Source: Acidimicrobiales bacterium (GTDB taxonomy: Bacteria; Actinomycetota; Acidimicrobiia; Acidimicrobiales; GCA-2861595). From it: 64,000 nt of DNA. Numbering within the stretch: position 1 is the stretch's first letter; the number at the start of each line of letters is the position of its first letter. Positions 4,477 to 9,567 of this stretch are shown piece by piece. The stretch covers positions 406,971 to 470,970 of the forward strand of contig JAUJNQ010000002.1 of NCBI GenBank assembly GCA_030448025.1. The letters are read 5' to 3'. The translations under genes and the position numbers were made by a program. A model generated the notes under the pieces. That model worked only from the letters and a program-made list of their open reading frames with translations. It was not told the DNA's origin and did no database searches.

Positions 4477-5784
4477 CTAGGGCTCGCTGAACACCCGGAT
4501 GTCGCGCCACATGTTCTCGTGGCTCTGGTGCACCTCACGGACCCAGGCGGGCACGGCGCTCCAATCGACGGTCACCTCGCGCTCTCCCCATCCAACCCGC
4601 ACAATCCGGCGATCGCCAGCGAAATCGGCGACCAAGTCGCGGCGGACGAACAGCAGGTGTCCGCGCCACGGTTCCTCCGCGCGGAAGGTCGCCGACGCAC
4701 GGACCCCGTCGAAGCCGACAAGATCCAAGGTGCCGGGCAGCTGACGAAGCCCGAACCGGGCAGCGAACTCGAACGACGGCACGTCATAAGACCGCGTCAG
4801 CACCGTCGGTGAGCCGCCTTCACCGGTCGAGAGCTCTACGGCCACCTGCCCGAGCCCGATGCCTTCGTCGCGCCAGTCACGACGCAACGCAGGACGGGAG
4901 TAGGTGTCATCGTCACCGTCCTCGAAGCGCACCTCGAACCTGGGGCTCCACGGCACCTCCCCGGCGAACACACCACGGACTGTCGGGAGCTCAGGAAAAA
5001 AGTCGTTCCCGAGGTACTTGAGCCCGCCGATCATCTCGAGTGCGGGATCCACATCGGCAGGCTCCAAAAGGAGCGTGCGGAAGAACCCCCAGACGCGCCG
5101 CCCGTCACGCTTATGCTCCAAGAACCCCTCGACCAGCAGCCACCCGCCGGCGACGCCGTAGATCTCCTCAGGTGACCACAACTCCGCTGGCACGTGCACC
5201 GCACCGGTCCGGAGCCACACCTCGTCGGCCATCGATGCGGTAGGCGCCCACTCCGGGAGCGGGAGGGGAAGGACCGGGGGTTCATCGGGGAACGACGGGT
5301 CGATGTCGGGCGTCACGTTCCGCGCACCCCCGACCCGCTGGTCCCGAATCCGCCCGGCATCAGCGAGACGGCCGATCAGCTCGAAGTACGCGATCCAGCC
5401 GTACTTCGCCGCTCGGCCCTCCACGAATGCCAGCGCCTGCGCCACCGCCTCCACGTGGGCCCGGACCACCACCGAGGAGATCTGCGGGCTCCCGAAGGCC
5501 CACAGCAGCGACACCGACTTGGGGGCGGAGAAGGTGGCGTCGAAGGCCATGTCCCGCCGCCCCCGCTTGCCGGCCAGCAGGTCTGTCCCCACCTCGGGGT
5601 CATGGCCGTCGACCAGAGCCCGCAGGTCGTCGTGTCCCACAACTCCGGACAGGCCCAGCTCACCGGCCCATGTCCCGGCCCACACGCCTGGGGCCTCGCC
5701 GTGGCCCAGGTAGTACTCCTCCAGCCCCTCGGCTACGGCCGAGATGGTGTACTCGGCGTCGGTGAGGGCCGCCACCCTCAACAC
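4477..5784 (-). CDS. truncated MobF (TrwC-type) relaxase N-terminus joined to unknown C-terminal region
   Basis: The first 125 or so residues are the start of a MobF conjugative relaxase: YY near the N-terminus for DNA nicking (LEEYYLGHGEAPGVWAG), LGLSGVV, and the highly conserved FDATFSAPKSVSLLWA. After VEGRAA (about 5406) the similarity ends, just before the region that should carry the three metal-binding histidines, and about 310 unrelated residues follow with no domain I can name. Nicking activity is therefore unlikely. A GTG at 5784 after GGAGGGG, overlapping the upstream stop as GTGTTGA, is a better start than the tracked 5850. It looks like a deletion or insertion scar in a mobile element and may encode a chimeric protein. 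Confidence 0.7.
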   Translation of the reverse strand: MLRVAALTDAEYTISAVAEGLEEYYLGHGEAPGVWAGTWAGELGLSGVVGHDDLRALVDGHDPEVGTDLLAGKRGRRDMAFDATFSAPKSVSLLWAFGSPQISSVVVRAHVEAVAQALAFVEGRAAKYGWIAYFELIGRLADAGRIRDQRVGGARNVTPDIDPSFPDEPPVLPLPLPEWAPTASMADEVWLRTGAVHVPAELWSPEEIYGVAGGWLLVEGFLEHKRDGRRVWGFFRTLLLEPADVDPALEMIGGLKYLGNDFFPELPTVRGVFAGEVPWSPRFEVRFEDGDDDTYSRPALRRDWRDEGIGLGQVAVELSTGEGGSPTVLTRSYDVPSFEFAARFGLRQLPGTLDLVGFDGVRASATFRAEEPWRGHLLFVRRDLVADFAGDRRIVRVGWGEREVTVDWSAVPAWVREVHQSHENMWRDIRVFSEP

Positions 5785-6488
5785 GGGTCGGCCCCTCCCC
5801 CGCCGCTGCCACCAAGGCCGGCCGCATCGGCCTCCCCGGAGGGGTGGCAACTGTCTGGAGTTCGAATCGGTGAGATTGCGTAGCGATGGTGGTGGTCGTC
5901 GTCGGGTTCGGTGTCGAGCTGGTCGAGTGGCGTTCTGTGCTGCGTTGAGGTCGGAGTTGGCGCTGTCGTTGATGACGTGGTGGTCGTGTCGTCTTCAGGC
6001 GCAGCGTCCTCACCGAGAAGGCTGAGTTGGGCGGCGCGTGAAACTGGGCTGTCGTCGGCGACCGGTGCCCGGCGCAAGCGCCGACGTCGTGCGCCGTCCC
6101 CAACCTCGGGACGCCCGGGCCTGTCCCCGTTCGAGGGACGCACGACTGTGCTAGTGGCGACAGGATCGGCGGCACCGAGCCGAGTCAGGCCGGAGATCGG
6201 TGTCACCACGTAGTGCGAGCCGTCGGCGGGCCGCTCGGTTGAACAGCGGAGGACGAAGCCGGCGGCGGCGAGCCTGACCAGGGCCCGGGCCACGGTGTCC
6301 TTGTCCAGGCCGAGCGCCGTTCCCAGCCGGCGCACGCTGGTGGTGGCGACCAGGCGGCCGTCTTCGCCTCGCTCGGCGCCGAGGGTCAGTTCCTCCAGCA
6401 CGGCCCAGGCCGTGGGGCCGAGCCCTGCCTTCGCGGCGCGCGCGGCGCCGGTGAGCACCACGGTCGGCTCTGGGCCGGGCTCGCTCAT
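5778..6488 (-). CDS. winged-helix DNA-binding protein of an integrative element
   Basis: A 236-residue protein. Residues 20-90 form a MarR/GntR-like winged helix (LGPTAWAVLEELTL, then VRRLGTALGLDKDTVARALVRLAAAGFVLR). The C-terminal half is low-complexity, rich in Asp, Thr, Pro and His, ending in a His/Asp run and a Gly tail. It overlaps the excisionase-like gene upstream (ATGA) and the relaxase start downstream, so the three are translationally coupled. Comparable small wHTH genes sit next to relaxases in actinobacterial integrative elements, where they probably control transfer or replication. That role is inferred from position. Confidence 0.65.
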   Translation of the reverse strand: MSEPGPEPTVVLTGAARAAKAGLGPTAWAVLEELTLGAERGEDGRLVATTSVRRLGTALGLDKDTVARALVRLAAAGFVLRCSTERPADGSHYVVTPISGLTRLGAADPVATSTVVRPSNGDRPGRPEVGDGARRRRLRRAPVADDSPVSRAAQLSLLGEDAAPEDDTTTTSSTTAPTPTSTQHRTPLDQLDTEPDDDHHHRYAISPIRTPDSCHPSGEADAAGLGGSGGGGADPC

Positions 6489-6775
6489 GGCCGGCGGCGC
6501 CGGCCCCCGTCCATGCCGCGCAACTGCGGTGCGGGTGCAGGGGGATCAGCAAGGAGGAACTGCTCGAGACGGACCCGGACCACTCGCAGGCAGCGGCCAA
6601 GGCGGACCACGGGGAGGCCCTCTCGCCCGCCGGTGGCCTCGAAGCGGGCGGCCAGCTCATAGGCCGTCCGGCGGCCAATGCGCAGCAGGGCCGCTGCCTC
6701 CTCGATGGTGAGCAGGTCGGCGACGTCGTTGGACAGGACGCTGGCTCGGCTGTGGGGCTCGGGGTGCTCCGCCAC
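6485..6775 (-). CDS. excisionase / MerR-type helix-turn-helix protein
   Basis: A 96-residue protein with an excisionase-type HTH: DLLTIEEAAALLRIGRRTAYELAARFEA, followed by LPVVRLGRCLRVVRVRLEQFL, the usual wing. Such proteins bend att-site DNA and direct the integrase to excision, or act as regulators. It starts at a GTG that lies only about 8-10 bases beyond the -10 hexamer of a good promoter, so its mRNA is probably near-leaderless, common in actinobacteria. It is the first gene of the minus-strand operon with the winged-helix and relaxase genes and diverges from the XRE repressor. Confidence 0.75.
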   Translation of the reverse strand: MAEHPEPHSRASVLSNDVADLLTIEEAAALLRIGRRTAYELAARFEATGGREGLPVVRLGRCLRVVRVRLEQFLLADPPAPAPQLRGMDGGRRRRP

Positions 6776-6783
6776 GGCCGGGG

Positions 6784-6812
6784 AAGTTACGCCCTTGTCA
6801 TTCCCTGGTCAA
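6784..6812 (-). promoter_or_regulatory. predicted promoter of the excisionase operon
   Basis: On the minus strand TTGACC (6807-6812) and TAACTT (6784-6789) are separated by exactly 17 bases and point at the GTG of the excisionase gene. The predicted transcription start lies within about 3 bases of the start codon. It overlaps the divergent promoter of the XRE gene, so the two probably compete. Confidence 0.55.
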
Positions 6813-6822
6813 CGGGTAGAAT
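6795..6822 (+). promoter_or_regulatory. predicted promoter of the XRE repressor gene
   Basis: TTGTCA (6795-6800) and TAGAAT (6817-6822) with a 16-base spacer lie upstream of the XRE gene on the plus strand. The expected transcript starts near 6829 and runs through the 10-bp repeat array to the ATG at 6891. It physically overlaps the minus-strand promoter. Confidence 0.5.
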
Positions 6823-6840
6823 TACGGGGTCATGTACTCA

Positions 6841-6890
6841 TGGACACCAGGGGACACTAGGGGTTACCAGCGAGTACCAACGGACACTAG
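6841..6890 (+). repeat. five tandem 10-bp repeats (putative operator array)
   Basis: Five consecutive decamers, tggacaccag, gggacactag, gggttaccag, cgagtaccaa and cggacactag, share an nGGACACYAG or nRGTACCAR core. The preceding decamer (catgtactca) is a weak sixth copy. The 10-base period puts each copy on the same helix face. The array ends exactly at the ATG of the XRE gene, as expected for cooperative autoregulation. Confidence 0.6.
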
Positions 6891-7547
6891 ATGAACGAGA
6901 AAAAATCTTCGCCGAGGTCGCCTCGCAAGGCCCCAGAGGCTCGATATCGGGGCATGACGCCCAACCAGGTGGTGGCCTACAACCTCCTGCGGGCCCGCCA
7001 GCTCCGGGGCTTGACCCAGGACCAGGCCGCCGCCGCCCTCGAGCCCTACCTCGGACTGCGCTGGTCCAAGGCCAGCTTCTCCCAGGCTGAGCGATCCGTG
7101 GGGGGGAAGTTCGTGCGCCAGTTCGACGCCGACGAGGTGGTGGCCTTCGCCCGGGGCTTCGAGCTGCCCGTCACCTGGTTCTTCATGCCGCCTCCTGCGT
7201 GGAAGGACGGCGCCCCGGTCAAGCTCAGCACCCCCGACGCCCGGCGATTCGGCACCGAGCTGGCCCTGCTGGTCGACCTGGTCTTCGGGGACGACAGCCA
7301 CCACTGTCAACTTCTCGAAGCACGGCTGGCCGAGTTCCTGGACTCGCTCGGCCCCGACCGCCTCACGCAGGCGCAGGAGCAAATAGCCGGCGCCGCCCTG
7401 CGAGCCGCTGGGATCGTGCGACACCGGCTCGGTGATGTCGAACAGTGGGAGGAGTCGCTACGGGCAGTAGCCGATCACCTTGGCGGGCTGCGGAGGCAGC
7501 TGGAGGGGTCTGTGGGTGAGGCGGCAGAGAAGGACGGAGAACGCTGA
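6891..7547 (+). CDS. XRE-family helix-turn-helix regulator of the integrative element
   Basis: A 218-residue protein. The N-terminal Cro/C1-type HTH spans about residues 25-90 (VAYNLLRARQLRGLTQDQAAAAL, SKASFSQAERSV, then ADEVVAFARGFELPVTWFF), followed by a helical C-terminal half. The layout matches repressor-like regulators of actinobacterial integrative elements. It is transcribed away from the excisionase operon across a shared control region with a 10-bp repeat array, and the integrase follows 28 bases downstream on the same strand. It probably represses excision genes and itself; that is inference from the arrangement. Confidence 0.78.
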   Translation: MNEKKSSPRSPRKAPEARYRGMTPNQVVAYNLLRARQLRGLTQDQAAAALEPYLGLRWSKASFSQAERSVGGKFVRQFDADEVVAFARGFELPVTWFFMPPPAWKDGAPVKLSTPDARRFGTELALLVDLVFGDDSHHCQLLEARLAEFLDSLGPDRLTQAQEQIAGAALRAAGIVRHRLGDVEQWEESLRAVADHLGGLRRQLEGSVGEAAEKDGER

Positions 7548-7575: not shown

Positions 7576-8709
7576 ATGGCTGTGAAGAGACTGTCGAGCG
7601 GAAAATGGGAGGCGTCGTACCGCGACCCGGTGGGTCGTGAGCGGATCAAGACCTGTCGCACGCGCGCCGAGGCGGACCGATGGCTCGCCGGCGTGAAGAC
7701 GGACATGGGACGAGGCGACTACATCGACCCGCGCCTTGCTCGCTCACGGTTCGGGGAGTGGGCCGAGGAATGGCTGGCGACGACAACGCACCTGAAGGCG
7801 AAGACCCGAGTCGACTACGAAGGAATGCTCCGTTGTCATGTCCTCCCGGCGTTCCGCGATCGGCCCATCGCCACCATCCAGCAGGTGGACGTTCGCCATT
7901 TCATCGCTGTGATGGCGGAGTCCGGGGCAGCAGCGGGCACCATCCGATCGGCCCGCAAGGTGCTCCGCCTGGTGCTGGCCACGGCCCAGAGCGCTGGGGC
8001 CGTCAAGGCGAACCCTTGCGACGGCGTGAAGGTGGGCCAGTCTCCGAAGGACGAGATGATCTTCCTGACCGCCGAGCAGGTTGAGAGGCTGGCCACCAGC
8101 ATCCGGCCGCCTTATGACACGCTCGTCCGCTTCGCGGCCTACACCGGTCTCCGGGCTGGCGAGGTCGGCGCCCTGAGGGTCGGGCGCCTGGAATTGCTGC
8201 GGGGACGGGTGCAGGTGGCCGAGTCGGTGACCGAGGTGCAGGGTCGGGGGCTTGTGTTCGGACCGACGAAGACCTACGAGCGTCGGGCGGCTCCCCTACT
8301 GCCCTCGGTGCGAGACGAGCTCGGTGCCATCCTCGCCGGACGGCCAGCTGATCCTGCCGCGTTCGTGTTCACCGCTCCAGAAGGCGGGCCTCTGCGCCAC
8401 AAGAACTTCTACCGGCGCCTCTTCAAGCCGGCCGTGTTGGCCGCCGACCTGCCCCAGGGGACGCGTTTCCATGACCTACGCCACACTTGCGCAGCGCTGA
8501 TGATCGCCCTCGGCGCTCATCCCAAGGCCATCCAGGAACGCCTCGGGCACTCGTCGATCACGGTCACCCTCGACCGCTACGGTCATCTCTTCCCATCCCT
8601 TGACGAGGCCCTCACGGCCCGCCTGGACGAGATGCGCCAGGACGCTCTCGCCGCACTGGGCAATCGGCCGCCGGCCGGGTTGGCCGCGGTCCGTAAACTG
8701 GGGGACTGA
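7576..8709 (+). CDS. tyrosine-family site-specific integrase
   Basis: Tyrosine recombinase of about 377 residues. The ATG at 7576 follows GGAGGGAG and is preferred over the tracked start at 7480. It has an arm-binding N-terminus (SGKWEASYRDPVGRERIKTC), a SAM-like core-binding domain (about residues 60-140), and a catalytic domain with the conserved Arg in AYTGLRAGEVGAL, HDLRHTCA, GHSSITVTLDRYGH and the nucleophilic Tyr in DRY. All catalytic residues are present, so the enzyme looks intact. It lies less than 800 bases from the 3' end of tRNA-Ala(TGC), the likely attachment gene. The element's relaxase is truncated, so it may still excise but probably cannot conjugate by itself. Confidence 0.92.
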   Translation: MAVKRLSSGKWEASYRDPVGRERIKTCRTRAEADRWLAGVKTDMGRGDYIDPRLARSRFGEWAEEWLATTTHLKAKTRVDYEGMLRCHVLPAFRDRPIATIQQVDVRHFIAVMAESGAAAGTIRSARKVLRLVLATAQSAGAVKANPCDGVKVGQSPKDEMIFLTAEQVERLATSIRPPYDTLVRFAAYTGLRAGEVGALRVGRLELLRGRVQVAESVTEVQGRGLVFGPTKTYERRAAPLLPSVRDELGAILAGRPADPAAFVFTAPEGGPLRHKNFYRRLFKPAVLAADLPQGTRFHDLRHTCAALMIALGAHPKAIQERLGHSSITVTLDRYGHLFPSLDEALTARLDEMRQDALAALGNRPPAGLAAVRKLGD

Positions 8710-8710
8710 G

Positions 8711-8914
8711 ATGGCAATCCAACCCGCCAAGGACAATCCCGGGGACCGGAACCCCGACACTGAACCGGTTGAGCCAGGGGACCACGCTGCTGACCGGCTC
8801 ACAGTCGACGAGCTGCTGCGGCGTGCCCGGCCGCTCCCCCCGCATGAGGAGATGGTGATCGAGGGCATCACGGAGGAAGAAGGCGCCGCCTTCCTCGCTG
8901 CACTCGACGATTGA
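8711..8914 (+). CDS. putative antitoxin partner of the PIN toxin
   Basis: A small acidic protein of 67 residues (TVDELLRRARPLPPHEEMVIEGITEEEGAAFLAALDD). It starts at an ATG one base after the integrase stop and overlaps the PIN-domain gene, whose TTG start lies in its final ATTGA. Its size, charge and coupling to a PIN gene fit an antitoxin, although I cannot see a classical AbrB, Phd or RHH DNA-binding motif. It probably stabilises the element by addiction. Confidence 0.55.
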   Translation: MAIQPAKDNPGDRNPDTEPVEPGDHAADRLTVDELLRRARPLPPHEEMVIEGITEEEGAAFLAALDD

Positions 8915-9342
8915 ACGCCCGGCGGAGGCGTGGCCCAATCGTCATCGACACCAACGTGTTCGGCGCCGACCTTGTGCCGGGCTCGCTGCTCACCGAACTC
9001 TACGAGCCGCTCATGGTGGGGAGGGCTGCGTTCATCTCCTTCCAGACCGTCGCGGAGCTTCGCTTCGGAGCGCTACGCCGTGAGTGGGGCGCGCCACGCC
9101 TCCTCCAGCTCCACATGAAGATCGCCCGGGCTCAGGTGGTCCACTCCAACGAGAAGCTCGTCGTCACCTACGCCGAGCTGCGAGCGGCTTGCGAACGTTC
9201 CGGCCACGCTCTTGGCCAGCGGGACCATGACGCCGACCGTTGGATCGCGGCCACGGCCATCCGCCTTGGCGTGCCGTTGCTGTCGCACGACGGAATCTTC
9301 CGGAACGCTCCCGGCCTCGTTCTCGAGAACGCTGACGAGTGA
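8911..9342 (+). CDS. PIN-domain ribonuclease toxin (VapC-like)
   Basis: A 143-residue PIN protein. The first acidic motif is IVIDTNVFGADL near the N-terminus, the second VAELRFGA, and the third HDADRWIAATAIRLGVPLLSHDGIF, giving the usual quartet of Asp/Glu residues for Mg2+-dependent RNA cleavage. The start is a TTG overlapping the stop of the small upstream gene, a standard toxin-antitoxin layout. It is the last gene before the tRNA-Ala attachment region, a frequent position for element-stability modules. The RNA target is unknown. Confidence 0.85.
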   Translation: MNARRRRGPIVIDTNVFGADLVPGSLLTELYEPLMVGRAAFISFQTVAELRFGALRREWGAPRLLQLHMKIARAQVVHSNEKLVVTYAELRAACERSGHALGQRDHDADRWIAATAIRLGVPLLSHDGIFRNAPGLVLENADE

Positions 9343-9391
9343 CCAACAGTGGCATCCCGTGCCCTTCAGGACCGCCCCGTGTCGCCTGGTG

Positions 9392-9421
9392 TCGCGGAGT
9401 TTCGCGGAGTTTTCGCGGAGT
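9392..9421 (+). repeat. three direct repeats of TCGCGGAGT
   Basis: TCGCGGAGT occurs at 9392-9400, 9402-9410 and 9413-9421, spaced 10 and 11 bases apart, about one helical turn. The array lies between the PIN gene and tRNA-Ala. Placement suggests integrase or excisionase arm-binding sites, which is inference. Confidence 0.4.
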
Positions 9422-9493
9422 AGGCGCCGACCCACTCCGTTATCCACAGCTCGCCAGGGCCTGAAAAGCGCCTCTGACCTGCGCTGTTACCAG

Positions 9494-9567
9494 TGGAGAC
9501 GATGGGACTCGAACCCACGACCCCCTGCTTGCAAAGCAGGTGCTCTAGCCAGCTGAGCTACGCCCCC
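9494..9567 (-). tRNA. tRNA-Ala (TGC anticodon)
   Basis: A 74-base cloverleaf can be drawn on the minus strand: acceptor GGGGGCG with CGTCTCC, D arm GCTC/GAGC, anticodon arm CCTGC-TTTGCAA-GCAGG with anticodon TGC, and T arm GTGGG-TTCGAGT-CCCAT. The 3' CCA is not encoded. The 3' end faces the integrase and PIN genes, as expected if the element uses it as attB. No second copy of the 3' end was seen in the window. Confidence 0.95.

Follow-up and report, generated by a model that had tools for sequence, protein, structure and literature searches.

Introduction

Known recombination directionality factors (RDFs) bind direct repeats spaced one helical turn apart, both at attachment (att) sites and at promoters (PMC7498355, PMC11963761). 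In phage 186, the early promoters, which oppose one another, have seven such repeats between them and att has five; both sets are bound by Apl, which is at once an excisionase and a regulator (PMC7498355). Likewise, the lytic operon of phage P2 opens with the gene for Cox, which binds repeats both at the lysogenic promoter, repressing it, and at att (PMC7498355). The integrative element ICEMlSymR7A encodes RdfS, a winged-HTH RDF whose targets are attP and the promoter of its own gene (PMC11963761). The hallmark of such dual-purpose RDFs, as typified by Apl, Cox and RdfS, is a set of one-turn sites that att has in common with a regulatory promoter. Among other DNA-binding proteins, Pukovnik Xis of a mycobacteriophage binds tandem repeats head-to-tail (PMC7498355) and BldC of Streptomyces forms head-to-tail multimers on direct repeats (PMC5859096), with this mode of assembly being shared across the BldC/Pukovnik Xis/RdfS fold group (PMC7498355, PMC11963761, PMC5859096).

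Here we analyze a locus in a 64,000-nucleotide stretch (the window) of the genome of an Acidimicrobiales bacterium, in which an array of decamers sits between a divergent HTH_17 excisionase-like gene (xis) and an XRE gene (xre) within a ~19-kb island in a tRNA-Ala gene. Judging from sequence comparisons, we lean towards reading this array as the operator of an RDF, with the HTH_17 excisionase encoded on the divergent strand as the likeliest such factor. As with the Apl operators of phage 186, one-turn direct repeats are found at both promoter and att; however, the promoters of the window are back-to-back and overlapping rather than facing each other, the operator sequence and the protein family are different, and the element has a truncated relaxase with no phage sign in the genes examined. 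The likeness to P2 Cox lies in xis being the first gene of an operon opposing the regulator gene, whereas the repeat differs and the sites fall within the regulator gene's transcribed leader. In contrast to the sites of RdfS, which have no clear consensus, the window shows a clear GGACAC decamer; further, while RdfS represses its own promoter, the array of the window lies mainly on the xre side.

The integrative element and its genes

The 47-bp att core, corresponding to the 3' end of tRNA-Ala(TGC) (9493..9539, minus strand), has an exact copy at G000:C7:397390-397436. This attL copy lies ~9.6 kb to the left of the window, beyond a 100-N scaffold gap (C7:406871-406970) situated within the element just left of the window. 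The positions of the repeat give an element of ~19.1 kb, an approximate size because the gap lies inside it. The order 3' of the array is xre, a tyrosine integrase, a VapBC-like pair and tRNA-Ala(TGC). The XRE-type regulator (218 aa, 6891..7547, plus strand) belongs to a family across which the HTH is recognized weakly (HTH_3/HTH_31), and the integrase occupies 7576..8709 (plus strand). Between it and attR, at 8687-9342 (plus strand), is a PIN-domain (VapC-like) toxin gene with a small gene upstream.

On the minus strand, the first gene divergent from xre encodes an excisionase-like winged-HTH protein of 96 aa (6485..6775), the candidate binder of the array, which scores 32.9 bits with Pfam HTH_17 (cut-off 27) and falls just below the cut-off of TIGR01764 (28.6 vs 28.8). 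It is followed in the operon by a MarR/Rep-like winged-HTH gene (5778..6488), assigned by weak matches and conserved in relatives, and by a MobF/TrwC relaxase N-terminal fragment fused to unrelated sequence (4477..5850). The family match of the latter is confined to residues 32-148, after which the sequence is unrelated; hence, this relaxase is truncated or fused. Because of this truncation, the present copy of the island may have lost its mobility. Over the same 148 residues, the relaxase is 86% identical to that of a paralogous locus, L072, on contig C9. Elsewhere in the genome, a further element has left a relic at G000:C7:176762 (L005), where a fragment from the C-terminus of a member of this XRE family lies beside another integrase. 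The preliminary description had spoken of a compact lysogeny-type switch: the compact divergent regulatory region of an integrated element stands, but the array resides in an integrative element whose MobF relaxase is truncated, and no phage genes were seen among the island genes examined.

Overlapping divergent promoters and a phased decamer array

Two overlapping promoters can be read from the sequence, just as the preliminary description had them. The minus-strand xis promoter (6784..6812) comprises TTGACC (6812-6807), a 17-bp spacer and TAACTT (6789-6784), and the plus-strand xre promoter (6795..6822) comprises TTGTCA (6795-6800), a 16-bp spacer and TAGAAT (6817-6822). The latter is the sole sigma-70-like match across 3.9 kb, for which shuffles expect 0.1. 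Since the xis GTG lies ~8 nt past the -10 of its promoter, the xis transcript may be leaderless.

The array (6832..6891, plus strand; consensus GGACAC-N4), which we propose to serve as an RDF operator where the xre transcription unit begins, consists of direct repeats one helical turn apart: GGACACCAGG (6842-6851), GGACACTAGG (6852-6861), GGTTACCAGC (6862-6871), GAGTACCAAC (6872-6881) and GGACACTAGA (6882-6891), preceded by a weaker sixth unit, ATGTACTCAT (6832-6841). It begins ~10 bp 3' of the plus -10 and terminates on the start codon, the last base of GGACACTAGA being the A of the xre ATG at 6891. Its lag-10 self-similarity of 0.54 was reached at lag 10 by none of 5000 shuffles and at any lag from 5 to 30 by 0.4% of them; Tandem Repeats Finder reported just the best 2.2 copies.

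The position of the array almost wholly 3' of the plus -10 and ending on the ATG, together with the lack of a clear Shine-Dalgarno sequence before that ATG, would also suit repeats acting as RNA in the leader of the xre messenger rather than as DNA sites. We regard this as highly improbable and reject an RNA-level role because the sites recur at att: the same decamers are present in the att arms in either orientation, outside any leader, and in a related element of another family (G417, below) the array lies upstream of xis.

Conservation across related loci

Using the XRE protein as a query, we found homologs in 33 of 298 genomes of the same order, mostly draft assemblies as with the genomes compared here in general; the class and phylum were also searched. 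An array of GGACAC type separates the -10 from the xre start in seven distinct loci: the window, L065, L066 (on the contig of L001), L067, L068, L069 (on the contig of L002) and L038. The six loci other than the window each have 4-5 decamers in the same position, and the 10-bp spacing is found in all seven. This conservation is stronger evidence for the array than the shuffle statistics. Thirty-five units yield the motif GGACAC followed by four less constrained bases; comparison upholds both the five repeats running up to the xre ATG, which were claimed at the outset, and the idea that they represent a defined decamer.

The minus promoter is kept as TTGACN-17-TAAYTT in all six array loci with a complete upstream side, and also in the array-less paralog L072. 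For the plus promoter, the -10 is retained in 7/7 array loci (as TAGAAT, TAGATT, TACATT or TATATT), but the -35 TTGTCA initially proposed is not, with GTGTGG, GTGTAG, TTGCAA and CTGTCA occurring elsewhere.

Several variants of this organization were observed. At the contig end in L065 (positions 1-60), a further decamer array, in inverted orientation (GTGYC every 10 bp), takes over the position of the xis promoter. Upstream of the XRE homolog of L077 is a short possible array of different sequence (ACGTTGATCT ACGTTGATGG), which suggests that distinct XRE clades may carry distinct decamers. On contig G124:C39, the array GGACACTAAC GGAAACTAAA GAAACTAAAG GATACTAAAG lies immediately 5' of a P-loop ATPase-like gene (L073:2901-2942), and the xre promoter of that contig carries another decamer, GTCCGYCGTC.

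Decamers at the attachment sites

Further copies of the decamer, for which a search had been suggested at the outset, were found mainly at attachment sites. In the integrase-side arm (attR) of the window island, read on the minus strand from 9394 (9335..9394), the units are CGACACCAGG CGACACGGGG CGGTCCTGAA GGGCACGGGA TGCCACTGTT GGTCACTCGT. On the inner flank of attL, four units, GGTAACTGAG GGGTACTGGC GAGTACCAGG GGACATGTAA (C7:397495-397534, minus strand), closely resemble the promoter units GGTTACCAGC GAGTACCAAC GGACACTAGA.

From the promoter arrays of other elements alone (leave-one-out), we built a weight matrix and scanned it over 77 kb with four-unit scores. In the window island, the promoter array scored 31.6, the attR arm 16.1 and the attL arm, just above background, 11.9, as against 11.8 for the best place elsewhere, with the tRNA core left out since its high score is that of tRNA T-loop sequence. 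Both att arms rank next below the island's own promoter array, an outcome attained by 8 of 1000 column-permuted matrices; a 16/20 match to the array is present in each att arm and in 4 of 300 random 150-bp stretches. Two independent elements showing the same pattern strengthen the case. In L068 (genome G066), the promoter array scored 28.1 and two tandem att fragments 18.2 and 16.9, with at most 5.6 elsewhere. The element of G417, a genome of another family assembled as one contig, spans tRNA-Ile to a tRNA-Ile fragment; here, the array upstream of xis scored 44.3 and the att arm 15.7 and 13.3, with the next best at 8.9. The integrase-side att arms of L065, L066 and L069 have no decamers, only 11-bp integrase-type repeats. 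The same sequence is found at att and at the regulatory promoter of one element in the window, L068 and G417, as for Apl and Cox. The sharing of decamers between promoter and att is very probably genuine, and by this sequence comparison the array appears not to be confined to the switch but to extend to the att arms.

This location raises the question of whether the integrase uses the decamers as its arm-type sites and would also repress from the promoter region. In attR, the units adjoining 9400 do grade into integrase-type TTTCGCGGAG repeats. However, a 23-bp block, TTCGCGGAGTTTTCGCGGAGTAG (9401..9423, plus strand), recurs identically in the attL arm and is presumed to comprise the integrase arm-type repeats; more generally, each element has separate 11-bp repeats suiting its integrase, identical in both arms (window, G417) and differing between elements. 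Moreover, the decamer is common to elements whose integrases are just 37-39% identical to that of the window, and we consider an integrase-bound array very improbable. We give a similarly low rating to the repeats being iterons for replication or transfer bound by the MarR/Rep-like protein of the operon. That protein is conserved beside xis in the array loci and weakly resembles replication initiators, but att arms, where no origin would be expected, also have the decamers, and the one-turn repeat unit and the modelled Xis fold fit RDFs better.

The protein reading the array

The preliminary description had left the choice between the XRE protein and the excisionase as the cooperative binder. 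In studied systems, proteins of the excisionase type occupy such an arrangement cooperatively and head-to-tail (PMC7498355, PMC5859096), and the XRE protein is the less likely of the two because the G417 element has the array without an XRE gene. We judge Xis to be, on balance, the probable binder. The best PDB matches of the window Xis model are BldC-DNA complexes (6ama, 6amk), Pukovnik Xis (4j2n), RdfS (8dgl) and Tn916 Xis, albeit with weak E-values of 0.05-0.4; the weaker fold matches include P2 Cox (4lhf). BldC, the best of these, is unlike the window protein a developmental regulator acting on 9-bp AATTXXXX(C) repeats not tied to att, in contrast to the 10-bp repeats here. Pukovnik Xis, from an actinobacterial phage, is a fold match within the above range of weak E-values, but is a phage protein of low sequence similarity to the window Xis (about 30%).

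What counts against Xis as the binder is its distribution. Two unrelated-looking excisionase types accompany the same array—type A in the window, L067 and L038, and type B in L066, L068 and L069—and type A is also found in L071 and L072, both without the array. The persistence of the array where type A has been replaced by type B would suit the XRE protein as the binder, cooperatively repressing its own gene as a lysogeny-type autoregulator, with the att sites letting it hold or release integration. In the same direction, among ~57 XRE homologs, the seven whose recognition helix reads SKASxSQAERS, and no others, have the GGACAC array upstream, and the nearest other XREs (SKGTFSAAERS, TVAQVSAAERS, SIANYSAAERS) are without it. 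However, since the array lies in the xre leader, this correlation could be plain co-inheritance. Further, the G417 element, with its type A Xis, longer array and att decamers, has no XRE homolog within 32 kb, and att arrays are also present in G017, G025 and G052, genomes in which no XRE homolog was detected. HTH_3 proteins usually bind palindromes as dimers, which also speaks against an XRE protein reading direct repeats; the predicted XRE structure (mean pLDDT 69) gave generic HTH matches only. We therefore view XRE binding as unlikely. More doubtful still is its broader form, whereby an XRE/HTH_3 regulator outside the winged-HTH family would read phased direct repeats as both immunity-type repressor and RDF, whatever excisionase the element carries.

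Returning to Xis as the binder, we advance the following plausible mechanism. The XRE protein, assumed to repress the xis promoter, would keep the xis operon low. Once made, Xis monomers might assemble head-to-tail along the decamers, the resulting filament blocking xre by covering its transcription unit from about +5 to +65. The accumulation of Xis would then shut off xre and reinforce the switch once xis is on, while at att the same Xis would bend the arms for the integrase to excise the element. That the effect at the array is repression of xre is, in our estimation, an evenly balanced proposition; one protein probably controls both xre and excision, as in phages 186 and P2. The logic of those phages, with one set of sites for decision and excision, would thereby reach integrative elements of uncultivated Actinomycetota. 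Since the array is kept through exchanges of excisionase type and also occurs without an XRE gene, the identity of its reader is open to direct testing.

Decamer arrays elsewhere in related genomes

Relatives were searched for GGACWC or GGWCAC occurring three times at 10 bp; in stricter searches, the reversed-pattern control gave few matches (4 in one and 1 in another). Outside the xis/xre promoters, 25 places matched, mostly att sites. Eight of these lie <100 bp from an intact tRNA gene (L106, L110, L117, L118, L135, L140, L154, L157), against ~0.1 expected by our estimate at ordinary tRNA density, and four are at tRNA fragments recognized by eye (L107, L116, L142, L143). One (L144) is 60 bp from rnpB and adjoins an integrase start, and two (L137, L139) are at an acyl-CoA dehydrogenase-like 3' end, L137 being bordered also by an integrase start. 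At many of the places, the decamers are beside separate element-specific repeats that suit the integrase. GGWCAC every 10 bp is thus a searchable motif marking att sites in these genomes, at tRNAs, rnpB and protein genes; as it persists at decayed elements too, it helps to delimit islands.

Exact decamer matches in viral contigs (L006, L007) fall in repeat-rich contigs that are apparently unrelated; XRE relatives were absent from the plasmids searched, and only distant ones were found in viral contigs. Finally, at G000:C7:292885-294208, two copies of tRNA-Ser(CGA) 1.3 kb apart each have a decamer array (L117, L140). No integrase was found near these copies, and they are a probable vestigial att pair; one of the two sites is present too in the sister genome G162 (L106).
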